A stretch of 64,000 nt of DNA, from contig JAUQQC010000006.1 of the NCBI GenBank assembly GCA_030550025.1, forward strand, positions 62,001-126,000, written 5' to 3'. The stretch comes from Acidobacteriota bacterium (lineage in GTDB: Bacteria; Acidobacteriota; Blastocatellia; HR10). The notes under the pieces are model-generated. The model was not told the DNA's origin, ran no database searches, and saw only the letters and a list, made by a program, of their open reading frames with translations. Position numbers and translations under genes: made by a program. The first letter of the stretch is position 1, and every line of letters starts with the position of its first letter. This document shows positions 484 to 7,089 of the stretch, piece after piece.

Positions 484-2562
484 TCAGCGACGCTCTTTTA
501 GCCTCACCCATCCCTTCGCCACCAACTCGTTGACGAACGCTTCGACGTCCGCCAGCGTCACGTTCTCGAATTCGGCGAATGCGGCCCAATAAATGTGCGC
601 GAGGCTTCGTTCTCCATCGATCAGGTTCTTGATGAGCATCGCGAGCCTCGGCTCCACCTGCGGGGACCTATACTCCAGCCATGCGCGAAATCCTGGTCCA
701 AGCGGGAGCACGCGCGTGGGGATGAGCTGATGGAGGCGTAACTCTTCCGCCTCCGGTTCCAATTCCTTCGGCGCGACGCCGAGCATCCGACACATGCGCT
801 CATACTCCTCGGCCAGAAGCCGGACCGCCGCTTCTTGAAGGACGAAGAGATTCCATGTGAAGCCGGATTCGTATTTGAGCGTGGCGACGGAGTCGGACGT
901 TCCTTCAGTGAGCGCGAGCTTCGCGAGCGAGGCGAGGATGCGACTCTCGTGCTCGTAGGCCTGTTGCACGATGTGGTACGCGCGTTTGAAGCGCGCGTGG
1001 ACGTTCTCGCGGGTGCTCTCGGCGATCCACCGCAACGCCCGCGCTTCGGCTTCCCCGAGGCGTTCCGCTCCCCCGGCGCGCACCTCGGCCAGGAGTTTCG
1101 GAAGATCGCGCGCCGTCACACCGGCCAGGAAAAGAGCGCACGCGGCGCCCAGGAAAACCATTCGCTTGAGCGCCGTCGGATCCAGATGTTCGACCCGGTC
1201 ATCGCTTGTGTGGATGTATCGGAGCGAAGGCGCTGCTAAGCTGATCGAAGGGACGCCGATGCCATTCGTCTCGAAGACGAGATGATCCGAGATCGGCGCA
1301 TATGGCCAGAACTGTACGGCGAAAGGATCGCGCGTCCCCGTCGGCGCGACAAAGAGCGGCGAAGGCGCGCGTGCGACCGGCGCCAACTCCGAGGCCAAGC
1401 GCGCGATCGCCCGCAGGACGTCGTCAGCGAACGTCCCCATCCAGCTCGGTTGTTGGATCGCGATGAAATCCGTGCGCCCGTGCCGATCTCCGCCCGCTTG
1501 GTCCAGGTTGATGTTGATCAGGAGGCGCCGCGCCTCTTCGGGATGGGCGAAGAAATAGCGATATGTGCCCTCGATCTCCGTCACCCACCAGAAGCGGATC
1601 GTCCGAAGAGGCGGGGCGATCTTCCCCTGGCGGATAAGCGTCAGAAGGACGCGCGCGATCTCCAAAAGGGCGGCGCTGCCGGAGGCATTGTCGTTCGCTC
1701 CCGGTGGCGGATGATCGAGATGGGCCGTGAAGACGATGTCTTGATCGCGGATGCGCGTGCCGGGGATTTCCGCGAGGACCATTTTCATCTGTCCAGGCCA
1801 CTGCATCTCCACGCGCAAGTGGACGCGAGCGCGGAGTCGTTCCCCTCGTGCCAGGCGCTGCGCGAGCGCTCGACCGCGAGCTGGCGAAAGCATGAAGGCA
1901 AATCCCTTCGTTCCTTCTCGCGCGCGCTCTGGAGAGAGCTGTCCCCAGGCGATGGCTTCTTCGGATGGCGCGATGCCGAAGAATGCGCTCTGCGCATACG
2001 AGAGGATGCCCACGGCCCCGCGTTCGGCGATCGCCAACGGCTCGACCTGATGCGGCGGACCACTGGCCAGCACGATCTTGCCCCGTACGTCCACGCCGCG
2101 ATAATCGGCGGCGCTCGTCCCCGCGCCAACGGAGATGAGCTCAGCCTCCACATCGGCATCACGGCTGTACTGAGCGACGGAGAGCGGGATCTCAGCGGCG
2201 TCGGCGAGCAGGATGGGCTCCGGATCGAGCACCCAGAGCTCTCCGCGTTGCACGTTCCACGAGGGAATATCGGCGGGAAAACTGAGGATGCGCACATCGG
2301 TCAATCCGATGGCGCGCGCGCGTTCGGCCACGATCTCAGCCGCGCGAGCGAATCCCGGGGAGGCCGGATACCGAGCGAGCGCCGCCAGCGCCGTCGTCGT
2401 CTCCAAGACGCGCTCGCCCGATGCTTCGGCGAGAAGCTGGGTGACGAGGTCCGACGGCAGCAATGACGTTTGTGGCGCAGCCGTAAGGGGAGTTGTGAGG
2501 TTCACCAGGACGAAGAGGCTGAGAAAAGGGTGTGCTCGATGCGTCCCACGAATGCGCTTCAT
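484..2562 (-). CDS. Secreted M28-family zinc peptidase with PA domain
   Basis: The protein has 692 residues. A signal peptide ends near the TAAPQ at about residue 30, a protease-associated (PA) domain lies at about 130-215, and an M28 metallopeptidase domain follows. The metal-binding pattern HLDHPPPGANDNASG is at about residue 279, followed by the Glu-rich TEIEGTY, by NLDQAGGD and by a late HTSDD. These fit the co-catalytic two-zinc aminopeptidases. The ATG at 2562 overlaps the upstream isocitrate dehydrogenase stop as ATGA, which fixes the start and shows translational coupling. A longer reading from 2661 would overlap that gene by 100 bases and lose the signal peptide. It probably releases amino acids from peptides outside the cytoplasm. 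The C-terminal 200 residues are not assigned. Confidence 0.88.
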   Translation of the reverse strand: MKRIRGTHRAHPFLSLFVLVNLTTPLTAAPQTSLLPSDLVTQLLAEASGERVLETTTALAALARYPASPGFARAAEIVAERARAIGLTDVRILSFPADIPSWNVQRGELWVLDPEPILLADAAEIPLSVAQYSRDADVEAELISVGAGTSAADYRGVDVRGKIVLASGPPHQVEPLAIAERGAVGILSYAQSAFFGIAPSEEAIAWGQLSPERAREGTKGFAFMLSPARGRALAQRLARGERLRARVHLRVEMQWPGQMKMVLAEIPGTRIRDQDIVFTAHLDHPPPGANDNASGSAALLEIARVLLTLIRQGKIAPPLRTIRFWWVTEIEGTYRYFFAHPEEARRLLININLDQAGGDRHGRTDFIAIQQPSWMGTFADDVLRAIARLASELAPVARAPSPLFVAPTGTRDPFAVQFWPYAPISDHLVFETNGIGVPSISLAAPSLRYIHTSDDRVEHLDPTALKRMVFLGAACALFLAGVTARDLPKLLAEVRAGGAERLGEAEARALRWIAESTRENVHARFKRAYHIVQQAYEHESRILASLAKLALTEGTSDSVATLKYESGFTWNLFVLQEAAVRLLAEEYERMCRMLGVAPKELEPEAEELRLHQLIPTRVLPLGPGFRAWLEYRSPQVEPRLAMLIKNLIDGERSLAHIYWAAFAEFENVTLADVEAFVNELVAKGWVRLKERR

Positions 2563-3563
2563 GCCTCCAGCTCCGCCAAGATCGCCTCGGTGAATTCCGT
2601 CGTCGTCGCCGTCCCACCCACATCGCGCGTGCGAATCTGTCGCTCGGCGAGCACCCGACACAAGGCCGCATAAATGCGGTCGGCCGCATCCGCTTCCCCG
2701 ATGTGGCGCAGCATCATCAAGGCTGACAGCAGCATCGCCGTCGGATTGGCCAGATTCTTGCCGGCGATGTCCGGTGCGCTCCCATGTACGGCCTCGAAGA
2801 CGGCGATTGTGTCTCCGAGGTTCGCCCCGCCAACGACCCCCAATCCGCCGACGAGTCCAGCTGCGAGATCAGAGATGATGTCGCCATAGAGATTCTCCAG
2901 GAGCAAGACGTCGAACTGCTGCGGATTCATCACCAGTTGCAGACAGGCGTTATCCACGATCTTCTCCTCGATCTCGATCTCAGGATAGTCGCGCGCGACG
3001 CGCCGGAAGCAGTCCAAAAAGAGCCCATCCGAGAGCTTCATGATATTGGCCTTGTGCACGGCCGTCACTTTCCGCCGGTTCTCTCGGCGTGCGTACTCGA
3101 AGGCGAAGCGCGCGATGCGCGTCGAGGCGCGCTCGGTGATGATCTTGAGCGACTCGACGACGCCCGGCACGACGATGTGCTCCAGCCCCGAATAGAGATC
3201 CTCCGTGTTCTCGCGTACGACGATGAGGTCAACGGAGCCGAAGCGCGTGGGGACGCCGGGCAGGCTCCGCACCGGGCGAAGATTGGCATACAGGTCCAAT
3301 TCCTTCCGCAGGCGCACATTGACGCTCGCGAAGCCCTCGCCGATGGGCGTCGTGATCGGCCCTTTGAGAGCGACGCGATTGCGCTCGATGGATTCCAATA
3401 CCGCGAAGGGAAGCGGATCGCCATAGCGGTTGAGCGCTTGCATCCCCGCGATGTGTTCCTCCCACTCGATGGGGACGCGGGCCGCTGCGAGGATCCGAAC
3501 AGTGGCCGCCGAGACTTCCGGCCCGATGCCGTCTCCCGGGATCAGTGTGATCGTATATGCCAT
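2559..3563 (-). CDS. NAD-type isocitrate dehydrogenase
   Basis: This 334-residue member of the isocitrate/isopropylmalate dehydrogenase family begins MAYTITLIPGDGIGPEV. The substrate motif RENTEDLYSGLEH at about 115-128 and KANIMKLSDG at about 166-175 are of the isocitrate type; isopropylmalate enzymes have a different sequence there. The metal-binding NLYGDIISDLAAG lies near 222-234 and the nucleotide loop HGSAPDIAGKNLANP follows. The short length and loop resemble NAD-dependent IDH3-like enzymes rather than the E. coli NADP enzyme. It oxidises isocitrate to 2-oxoglutarate in the TCA cycle. It lies 18 bases after the amidohydrolase gene and overlaps the M28 peptidase gene by 4 bases. Homoisocitrate dehydrogenase is the main alternative. 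Confidence 0.88.
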   Translation of the reverse strand: MAYTITLIPGDGIGPEVSAATVRILAAARVPIEWEEHIAGMQALNRYGDPLPFAVLESIERNRVALKGPITTPIGEGFASVNVRLRKELDLYANLRPVRSLPGVPTRFGSVDLIVVRENTEDLYSGLEHIVVPGVVESLKIITERASTRIARFAFEYARRENRRKVTAVHKANIMKLSDGLFLDCFRRVARDYPEIEIEEKIVDNACLQLVMNPQQFDVLLLENLYGDIISDLAAGLVGGLGVVGGANLGDTIAVFEAVHGSAPDIAGKNLANPTAMLLSALMMLRHIGEADAADRIYAALCRVLAERQIRTRDVGGTATTTEFTEAILAELEA

Positions 3564-3581: not shown

Positions 3582-4973
3582 TCAGCGGTTTTTCACCTCA
3601 TTGCGCGGGACCTCGATCACTCGACCATCTTTGATGACCAGGACGACCTGGCGCAGCGCTTCCGGATCGAGCAACGGATCGCCGTCCACGACGATCAAAT
3701 CCGCAAGCTTGCCGGGTTCGATCGTCCCCAGCTCTCGCTCCCGCCCAAGCGCTTCCGCACCCATGCGCGTGGCCATCTGGATGACTTCGATCGGGGAAAT
3801 CCCCATGCTCGCGTAGAGCGCCAGTTCTTTGTAGAACCGACCATGTGGGATGAGGTCCGATCCCGTATCGGGTCCGAGCGCGATCTTCACGCCGAGCAGA
3901 CGCGCGCGCGTGAGGCCGCGAAAGGCCTCTCGCAATGTGCGCTTCGGATCGTATCCTCGCGCTCGCCATTCGAGCACGTTGCGGCGCCAGAGGGCCGCCC
4001 GCTGTGCGAGCGCTTGTAGGATCTCAGCCGGGAGCCGATTGTACAGCGGCGGCTCGATCAGGTCTTCGTCGGTTTTCTCCAGCGGATCCACGCGTTGCGC
4101 TTGAATCTGATAGAGCGTCGGCACGAGGATGATGTTGCGGCGAGCCATCTCCAGAAGCAACCGGTCATCGTAGGCGCGCAGTGGGGCCATGTGTTCGATC
4201 GTGTCCGCGCCGGCCATCACGGCTAAACGCACGGCCTCATCGTAGGGAGCATCCACATGGACGGCGACCTTCACCCCCGCGCGATGGGCTTCAGTGACGA
4301 TCGCTGAGAGTTCTTCGAGCGTGGGAAGCGGGCGTTGGCGCGTCAGTCTCACCTTCACGAAATCGATGCCTTTAGCGATCTGCTCTCGGACTTTCCGTCG
4401 CGCCTCCTTCACGCCGTCGTATTCGAGGAAGAGGGGGGACGAAGGCTGCGCTGGGTCTCTCTTGACGAACTGCGGCCCGGAAGCGAAAAGCCTCGGCCCG
4501 TCGGCTTCGATCTGTTCCCGCAGCTTGAGGACGAGTTCACTAGATCCGCAATCGCGCAGGCTCGTCACCCCGGAGAGGAGATCGAGTCGGGCGTTCTGCA
4601 GGATGACGTGCCGAAGCTTCTCCGGCGTGTCGGTGAACTCGGCGTCTCGCTCCCCAAGCCCGAGTCCCTCCAAATGCGCGTGCGCATCAATGAGCCCGGG
4701 GAGGATGAATTTCCCCTGCACGTCAATCACGTTCACGCCGGTGGGAATTCGCACGCGCCCCAGTCGTCCCACGGCCTTGATCTTATTGCCCGCGATGAGG
4801 ATGACCGGATTCTCGAACGGCAAAGGGGTATTGCCATCAATGAGCCATCCCCCGACGAGCGCCAGCGTGATCTCGGCTTCCGCTTCGTCGTTGGCGCGGA
4901 GGCGTTCCGACAGCGGGAGGCCACCGAACACAAGAAGCGCGAGAGTGAGAAGGAGTCGTGCGCGCATGCTCAT
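3582..4973 (-). CDS. Secreted metal-dependent amidohydrolase
   Basis: The protein has 463 residues, with a signal peptide over about residues 1-27 and a complete amidohydrolase barrel. Visible ligands are HAHLEG after the first strand, a candidate carbamylated lysine in FVKVRL, the histidines in VAVHVDA and TIEHMAP, and the aspartate of GPDTGSD. The C-terminal IEPGKLADLIVVDGDPL is typical of imidazolonepropionase-like and prolidase-like secreted amidohydrolases, so it probably cleaves a cyclic amide or a dipeptide. The ATG at 4973 overlaps the stop of the upstream MNT/HEPN remnant as ATGA. Longer readings back to 5390 would cover that gene and lack a signal peptide. Substrate unknown. Confidence 0.85.
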   Translation of the reverse strand: MSMRARLLLTLALLVFGGLPLSERLRANDEAEAEITLALVGGWLIDGNTPLPFENPVILIAGNKIKAVGRLGRVRIPTGVNVIDVQGKFILPGLIDAHAHLEGLGLGERDAEFTDTPEKLRHVILQNARLDLLSGVTSLRDCGSSELVLKLREQIEADGPRLFASGPQFVKRDPAQPSSPLFLEYDGVKEARRKVREQIAKGIDFVKVRLTRQRPLPTLEELSAIVTEAHRAGVKVAVHVDAPYDEAVRLAVMAGADTIEHMAPLRAYDDRLLLEMARRNIILVPTLYQIQAQRVDPLEKTDEDLIEPPLYNRLPAEILQALAQRAALWRRNVLEWRARGYDPKRTLREAFRGLTRARLLGVKIALGPDTGSDLIPHGRFYKELALYASMGISPIEVIQMATRMGAEALGRERELGTIEPGKLADLIVVDGDPLLDPEALRQVVLVIKDGRVIEVPRNEVKNR

Positions 4974-5431
4974 GATTCCGGCAAATGGCTCTCCACCATG
5001 CGAACCGCGAGTCCTGCCCCTTCCATCGCCCAGCGAGCATCGTCCACGCCGCACCCTTTGGTAGGAGGGAGATCGAGGTCTCCGTAGAAGGAGAGCTCGC
5101 GCTCCTTCCGAAGCCATTTCGGGATGACCGCCAATTCTTCGACGCGCTCGCGGACGGGTTCCAGAAACCGGTCGCATCGTCCCGGAATGGGGCCACTCGC
5201 GTCGTGCCAGAGCGGAGGCTCGATGCCCACCGGTCGCAGCGGGCCTTTCAGCGCCGACTCCACGGTCTCCTGGGTCTTGCGGACAACGTCCGCATCGGAT
5301 TCCGGCGTCGCCGTCCCGCGGGCTGCCGAGCCGAGGACGGTCGTGATGAGGCGTTCTTTGTAGACATCCGCGGCTTCTTCGAGAAGCCAAGGGAGGAGTC
5401 CATCAAAGGGAGCGCGCGTTGAAAGTTTCAC
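4970..5431 (-). pseudogene. MNT-HEPN toxin-antitoxin remnant fused by internal deletion
   Basis: The 153 residues read as two halves of different proteins. The first third, including WLLEEAADVYKERLITTVL and GSAARG with ESDAD shortly after, has the GS-x(n)-DxD active-site motif of minimal nucleotidyltransferases (MNT). Directly after this the chain turns into the C-terminal half of a HEPN protein, with VRKTQETVESALKG, a Trp-His-Asp and RKERELSFYGD. Intact MNT and HEPN partners are normally two separate genes of about 100-130 residues each, acting as antitoxin and toxin. Here the end of MNT, including its third catalytic acid, and the start of HEPN are missing, but the frame is kept. The GTG at 5431 has a GGAGCAGG site; an ATG at 5485 is the alternative. 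Activity is doubtful. Confidence 0.6.
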
Positions 5432-5510
5432 AACACCTGCTCCCGGCGCCGCGTGGCGCTCAAGCTGTGTCCTTCCCTCGTGCATGGCATCGCTATTGTA
5501 CAGCAGGCTT

Positions 5511-5519
5511 TGCTAAAAT
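5511..5519 (+). promoter_or_regulatory. Extended -10 promoter upstream of the CDF exporter
   Basis: TGCTAAAAT is an extended -10 element (TGn plus TAAAAT). It would start RNA near 5526, ahead of the small reading frame at 5549 and the CDF exporter at 5804. No good -35 box lies at the usual distance, which extended -10 promoters do not always need. Confidence 0.4.
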
Positions 5520-5548
5520 AACCAGTCCTTCGAGCGAGGAGGGAGCGC

Positions 5549-6731: not shown

Positions 6732-7089
6732 GGGGGTGACATGGGTTCGACGGGGGTCAAGAGGCGACGGGGTGCATGCCGGGTACCGTGCCGGCCCGAA
6801 AGAGGCACGGAAAAAAACAACTGCCAACGCGCAGTACGCTCAGGCCGCGTGAAGACGGCCTCGCTCCTCCTCACCTCGCCCGCGGGTGAGGGATGGGGCG
6901 CCGACCCAGACGGGCTCGGTCAGGGCGATCGATCGGCGCGCCCTGGCGACACCGGGATGCCGATCTAGTCGCGTGAGGCGCGCGTCGCCTCGCCTCCTCG
7001 CGCGGCGAATCGTCGAGAGGCGACTAAGCATGTAGAGCCTCGCGCCGGAAGGCCCTCGGACAGCGGTTCGATTCCGCTCACCTCCACCA
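6732..7089 (+). ncRNA. ssrA: Transfer-messenger RNA (tmRNA)
   Basis: The 5' end GGGGGTGACATGGGTTCGAC and the 3' end GGTTCGATTCCGCTCACC plus TCCACCA are hallmarks of one-piece tmRNA. The first seven bases pair with CACCTCC at 7079-7085, leaving A and an encoded CCA, and the GGTTCGATTCC T-arm is present. The gene is 358 bases long, the usual size. tmRNA with SmpB rescues stalled ribosomes and adds a degradation tag. A reading frame for the tag lies at 6823-6852. It sits alone behind its own promoter between the CDF exporter and the coiled-coil protein gene. Confidence 0.95.
6823..6852 (+). other. Proteolysis tag reading frame inside tmRNA
   Basis: Starting from the GCC at 6823 the codons give ANAQYAQAA followed by TGA. 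This fits the usual form of a tag that starts with Ala-Asn and ends in Ala-Ala. The antepenultimate residue is Gln where most bacterial tags have Leu (ALAA). The resume codon is inferred from the pattern; reading further upstream in frame would add Lys-Lys-Thr-Thr. Confidence 0.6.

Follow-up and report, generated by a model that had tools for sequence, protein, structure and literature searches.

In-frame collapses of an MNT-HEPN gene pair in front of an amidohydrolase gene in a genus of Acidobacteriota

The window analysed here, a stretch of 64,000 nucleotides from an Acidobacteriota bacterium (contig JAUQQC010000006.1 of assembly GCA_030550025.1), carries on its minus strand a short open reading frame (ORF) made of pieces of a minimal nucleotidyltransferase (MNT) and of a HEPN protein. 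This ORF lies between a conserved promoter-like element and an amidohydrolase gene, and the features of the locus are as follows:

5486..5527, minus strand: conserved promoter-like element of 42 nt (identity among genus genomes)
4970..5485, minus strand: collapsed MNT-HEPN ORF of 171 codons (ORF calling, Pfam and syntenic orthologues in all five genus genomes)
5288..5485, minus strand: MNT-derived part, residues 1-66, with GSxARG and SDxD motif (alignment)
5284..5292, minus strand: deletion junction, 437 nt lost relative to genome G004, breakpoint ambiguous by a few bases
4973..5287, minus strand: HEPN-derived part, residues 67-171 (alignment to relatives)
4970..4973, minus strand: ATGA overlap of the fused-ORF stop and the amidohydrolase start (sequence alignment)
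3582..4973, minus strand: amidohydrolase (Pfam, PF01979)
2559..3563, minus strand: NAD-dependent isocitrate dehydrogenase (IDH; TIGR00175, 459.7 bits, cutoff 432.4), next gene of a presumed operon

An initial annotation of this DNA had described the ORF as an MNT start joined in frame, through an internal deletion, to the second half of a HEPN protein, and this description holds on every point except the start codon. Support is best for a start at ATG 5485, common to all five genomes of the genus; the codon at 5431, where the start had previously been placed, is a GTG inside the ORF, 18 codons further on. In Pfam, NTP_transf_2 matches residues 49-125 with E 2e-4 (22.1 bits, cutoff 21), although the match covers profile positions 18-61 only; HEPN (PF05168) matches with E 0.0017 and 18.9 bits, below its 22-bit cutoff, over positions 26-113 of 117, so that the start of the domain is missing. 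Pfam support is weak for both parts, and the strong evidence is alignment to the intact neighbours found at the same locus in related genomes. When each half was searched for such relatives, separate MNT and HEPN ORFs were found in genome G002: residues 6-68 align within a 184-aa MNT ORF and residues 63-169 within the next ORF, a 139-aa HEPN, with 57-58% identity in each part by direct alignment. The chain leaves the nucleotidyltransferase (NTase) right after SDxD, the remainder of that domain being absent, and the HEPN-derived part, compared with the intact HEPN of G002, is missing ~32 residues at its start and retains the last three quarters. A search of solved structures with the fused protein gave no match at E up to 10.

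The junction falls at ~5287, between residues 66 and 67 (ESDAD/VVRKTQ), next to similar SD codons in the two genes (TCCGATG in MNT, TCGGACG in HEPN). The 437 nt lost relative to G004 appear as 407+30 in the DNA alignment. Because of a 4-nt overlap between them, MNT and HEPN are read in different frames, and 437 leaves a remainder of 2 when divided by three, which is the remainder needed for an in-frame MNT-HEPN fusion.

HEPN-MNT pairs are established toxin-antitoxin (TA) modules in which MNT adenylylates HEPN (PMC7641770). The locus resembles the type VII system MntA-HepT of Shewanella oneidensis, a module of two adjacent small genes (PMC7641770, PMC4621449), in that both parts of the window ORF are homologous to MNT and HEPN, with a GSxxRG..SDxD MNT plus a HEPN, and in that an intact pair is kept in G002. 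It differs in that the window retains one truncated ORF, not two complete adjacent genes, and no complete catalytic domain; the G002 MNT also scores far under the MntA equivalog cutoff (27.3 vs 60 bits). Judged from its sequence, the loss of the domain cores makes MNT or HEPN activity of the window ORF unlikely. The ORF is a fossil of the HEPN-MNT family and no working member of it.

We compared the locus among five genomes of the genus (G000, which is the window genome, and G001 to G004). The gene order is the same in all five: CDF transporter and tmRNA, then the MNT-HEPN slot, then amidohydrolase, IDH and a peptidase. In G002 the slot holds two complete adjacent genes, as in type VII systems, with an ATGA overlap between them and scores of 32.7 bits (MNT) and 54.9 bits (HEPN). 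G004 keeps both reading frames at nearly full length, with SDxD reading SDAG and HEPN ending four codons early. The two other genomes each carry a single collapsed ORF, as the window does: 154 codons in G003, where the NTase motif is lost, and 99 codons in G001, where nearly all of HEPN is gone and the remnant reads as the MNT start, a short piece of a HEPN helix and the HEPN tail (assigned by reading the sequence). The initial annotation had proposed a search for the same fusion in related genomes; collapses of this kind are indeed present, in shapes that differ from that of the window, so that G000, G001 and G003 retain three different subsets of the two domains.

The pair has decayed, and the three collapses are independent, because the sister lineages keep two ORFs: by dS the closest pairs are G000-G004 and G001-G002, in nine out of nine flanking genes. 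A single ancestral deletion was rejected on the same ground. Collapse thus happened at least three times in the genus and always in frame, which the initial annotation had not mentioned, and as the MNT and HEPN frames differ, each collapse also required a deleted length with the right remainder. Exact placement of the G003 breakpoint is impossible from the alignments. That the window's genome was misassembled, with two genes wrongly put together, is very unlikely, since a genome-wide search found no second copy of the missing MNT and HEPN pieces in that genome and since equivalent yet different collapses occur in G001 and G003; moreover, the joined halves have diverged from G004.

Protein constraint was measured by codon maximum likelihood over 174 columns, with a model and optimiser that we scripted ourselves instead of using a standard package. 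Evolution of the fused products is neutral: omega is 1.05 (roughly 0.65-1.85) on the collapsed branches G000, G001 and G003 taken together, where omega=1 fits (2dlnL 0.04) and values of 0.6 and 2.0 are rejected at the 5% level (2dlnL 5.46 and 5.03). The background omega (G002 and internal branches) is 0.17 and that of the G004 branch 0.57, and two omega ratios fit better than one (2dlnL 26.3, p 3e-7). On the same collapsed branches omega is 0.11 in the amidohydrolase and 0.04 in CDF; the amidohydrolase stays at 0.10-0.11 on background and collapsed branches and reaches 0.23 on G004. Pairwise dN/dS of the HEPN part is 0.74 for G000-G004 and 0.81 for G000-G003, against 0.04-0.25 in nine neighbouring genes.

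These values bear on a choice that the initial annotation had left between a fossil and a domesticated single protein, together with a proposal to look for selection by dN/dS. Kanamycin nucleotidyltransferase and GlnD/GlnE are complete enzymes. Like the window ORF, they have an NTase followed by a HEPN-like domain in one chain (PMC3710099); the window ORF differs in being unconstrained and cut short in both domains. A domesticated fusion that had taken on a new role, along the lines of kanamycin nucleotidyltransferase and other NTases fused to HEPN, would agree with the single ORF and SDxD motif of G000, and natural MNT-HEPN fusions with an inactive HEPN are described (PMC3710099). Against it stand the omega of 1.05, which leaves no sign of purifying selection, the end of the NTase part right after SDxD, and the want of a conserved architecture among relatives, the NTase motif being missing in G003 and nearly all of HEPN in G001. 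We therefore rejected a domesticated protein as very improbable, on an omega of about 1 and the different remnants in relatives, and retain the fossil.

The reading frame of these drifting sequences is nevertheless kept. Eight indels were counted by eye on the collapsed branches, from alignments of the five genomes, and 8/8 keep the frame: five small ones (3 and 6 nt in G000, 12 and 6 nt in G003, 15 nt in G001) and the three large junctions. In local noncoding DNA about 22% of gaps are multiples of three (28/118 against G004, 27/133 against G003); our coding mask is loose and reaches upstream of starts, so only the noncoding class served as control. Eight frame-keeping indels out of eight have a probability of about 1e-5 to 3e-5, or of 1.5e-4 if the null is set at 1/3, and these probabilities triple if the window's own junction is left out. 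Two indels of 9 nt, both also multiples of three, fall within or between the lineages with two ORFs (G004 and G002) and are not among the eight; neither is a second internal deletion in G001, where the two large deletions could not be cleanly separated. The G003 junction may hide several events, and the G004-G003 DNA alignment contains a compensating +1/-1 pair; G000 and G003 can be aligned without one. Frame-preserving indels are thus in excess on these branches, and at least three collapses, all in frame, point to the frame, and not the protein, as what selection acts on.

The absence of stop codons is supporting evidence. None of the three collapsed ORFs contains one, for which simulation gives a neutral joint probability of 0.010-0.016 if relaxation covers whole branches and of 0.07-0.09 if it covers half of each branch, so that the result can be supporting only. 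Stops are rare at 60-69% GC, and openness alone says little because the reading frame of the amidohydrolase, too, stays open a long way upstream of its start in every one of the five genomes. We had considered stop-free frames as the main evidence, a line weakened by the fact that GC-rich frames stay open by chance.

This is where a plain decaying pseudogene has to be weighed, that is, a useless pair undergoing random deletions whose frames stayed open by luck in a GC-rich genome. Such a history would explain the neutral protein evolution, and it gains from the rarity of stops at the local GC and from a stop-free probability of up to 0.09 if relaxation is recent; it sits poorly with 8/8 counted indels in frame vs about 22% in local noncoding DNA, with the retention of the ATGA overlap in four out of five genomes and with the strong conservation of the upstream element, although conservation is what a promoter would show anyway. 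On balance we consider it unlikely. As for selection on the frame, of six simulated losses of one or two bases at the junctions four bring translation to a stop 50 to 281 nt short of the amidohydrolase; the other two (delete-2 in G000 and in G001) meet no stop before the amidohydrolase ATG, so early termination would not follow from every change of frame.

The promoter-like element is 88-100% identical in all ten pairs of genus genomes, compared with 39-65% in the next 60 nt upstream and 50-77% in the first 60 nt of the ORF. It contains a TACAAT at 5500..5495, 9 nt before the ATG, and the MNT start is preceded by almost no Shine-Dalgarno pairing (-0.2 to -1.9 kcal/mol), which together make a leaderless or nearly leaderless start likely. 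A sigma-70 consensus scan of the region found no site; the conservation and position of the element would fit promoter activity. No copy was found elsewhere in its own genome at up to 3 mismatches, so at that stringency it is no repeated regulon motif.

Outside the genus, MNT-HEPN is absent directly upstream of the amidohydrolase in G005, G007 and G008, all of which have the amidohydrolase-IDH pair, and also from the slot in G006, whose amidohydrolase is cut by the contig end. In G005, which belongs to a sister genus in the same family, the 45 nt before the amidohydrolase ATG resemble the element in the same register (27/45); none of the other windows among the 4529 start-codon windows exceeds 23. 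Most simply, the pair was inserted between promoter and amidohydrolase; the alternative is that G005 lost it exactly, and we infer insertion from this comparison. HEPN relatives at E 1e-10 occur in 7/162 genomes of the class, 4 of them in the genus. A scan of our genome-contig collection returned a single related locus, an MNT-first pair in a Leptospiraceae MAG (L008 3423-4315) with 46% and 53% identity to the genus pair; it is closer to the genus pair than same-order pairs are, which suggests horizontal transfer. The genus MNT has ~20 extra N-terminal residues relative to that of the MAG, an extension that would agree with MNT having adopted the host gene's start codon. The HEPN-MNT pairs present elsewhere in G005 (L040 763-1682) and G006 (L061) have HEPN first. 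G007 (L062) has a similar HEPN-MNT pair, which may also be decaying, as its MNT alignment is split in two pieces and its HEPN alignment is gapped.

A precedent for such an insertion is the lysine operon of Thermus thermophilus HB8, where an MNT-HEPN module is inserted in a metabolic operon (PMC2701414). The likeness is a mobile MNT-HEPN pair in one lineage's operon that is absent from a relative (PMC2701414); unlike there, the pair of the window's genus sits between a promoter-like element and the first gene and has repeatedly collapsed in frame.

At its other end the ORF overlaps the amidohydrolase gene, as the initial annotation had noted in calling the two translationally coupled. The ATGA is present in the context GAATC-ATGA-GC; the -4 nt overlap is shared by G000, G001, G002 and G003, and G004 has an earlier TGA and an 8-nt gap, so that all five show the overlap or very short gap of a translationally coupled pair. 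Shine-Dalgarno pairing of the amidohydrolase is weak (-0.9 to -3.5 kcal/mol in four genomes, G004 left out), a value that some control genes share (-3.2, -3.3). IDH has strong pairing (-8.0 kcal/mol) and so may well be translated without coupling. For termination-reinitiation a ribosome has to finish almost at the following start codon: in two E. coli gene pairs a gap of 38 nt lowers it by 80-90%, in another pair it is lost altogether, and no more than the final 15 nt of the first gene are needed (PMC10666635). The ATGA of the window is of this kind, and a short stretch from the 3' end of the first gene would be enough here too; in the published pairs both genes are functional (PMC10666635), unlike the upstream cistron of the window, a drifting fossil.

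We consider it probable that a TA pair was inserted before the amidohydrolase and that the dead ORF has been kept as a ribosome conduit for termination-reinitiation. A type VII-like MNT-HEPN pair would have come, in the ancestor of the genus, between a near-leaderless promoter and the amidohydrolase, the first gene of a metabolic operon, and MNT would now use the promoter's start-codon position. Ribosomes terminating at the overlapping TGA would restart at the ATGA and translate the amidohydrolase, which, having itself a weak Shine-Dalgarno, may depend on this coupling. Once the pair had lost its use, its protein sequence would have drifted, and most of its length would have been deleted independently in G000, G001 and G003. 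In a frame-breaking variant ribosomes would stop long before the amidohydrolase, which would then be silent, and IDH might suffer transcriptional polarity as well; for this reason only in-frame deletions would have survived. The fused ORF would have retained both ends and an open frame, and not its product. The data suggest that only the act of translating the decayed ORF still matters.

Another possibility is a regulatory upstream cistron, in which ribosome progress senses some condition and controls the amidohydrolase operon, with a functional peptide or RNA. The position of the ORF between a conserved element and an overlapping start would suit it, and operon-coupled upstream ORFs are known (PMC9426467), but across the five genomes the middle of the ORF has either been deleted or diverged, and we regard this possibility as improbable.

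If the conduit reading is true, such ORFs would be annotated as hypothetical proteins with omega near 1 and an intact frame. The one syntenic slot offers a natural series, from the intact pair (G002) through motif loss (G004) and partial collapse (G000, G003) to near-total collapse (G001), in which protein constraint and frame constraint pull apart. We hold in even balance the broader proposal of a class of ORFs selected as a translated track and not as a protein, here arising when a mobile TA pair captured a leaderless promoter and became trapped before a host gene. Confirmation would mean that selfish genes which capture promoters can scar host operons permanently with translated remnants, and that an intact frame cannot be taken as evidence for a functional protein. 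Among titles and abstract openings of the open-access literature, with full texts mostly outside the search, none described such a case.

Some further features were seen around the slot. The tmRNA gene, at 6732-7089 of the window, encodes the tag ANAQYAQAA, as in G004, and the tag is ANVQYAQAA in G001, G002 and G003. G003 (L011) has several hundred extra bases between CDF and the element relative to the other genomes, with a long frame on the opposite strand that resembles an aldo/keto reductase. In G005 (L036 2277-4557), the genes upstream of the amidohydrolase resemble, by eye, those of type III CRISPR RAMP proteins.
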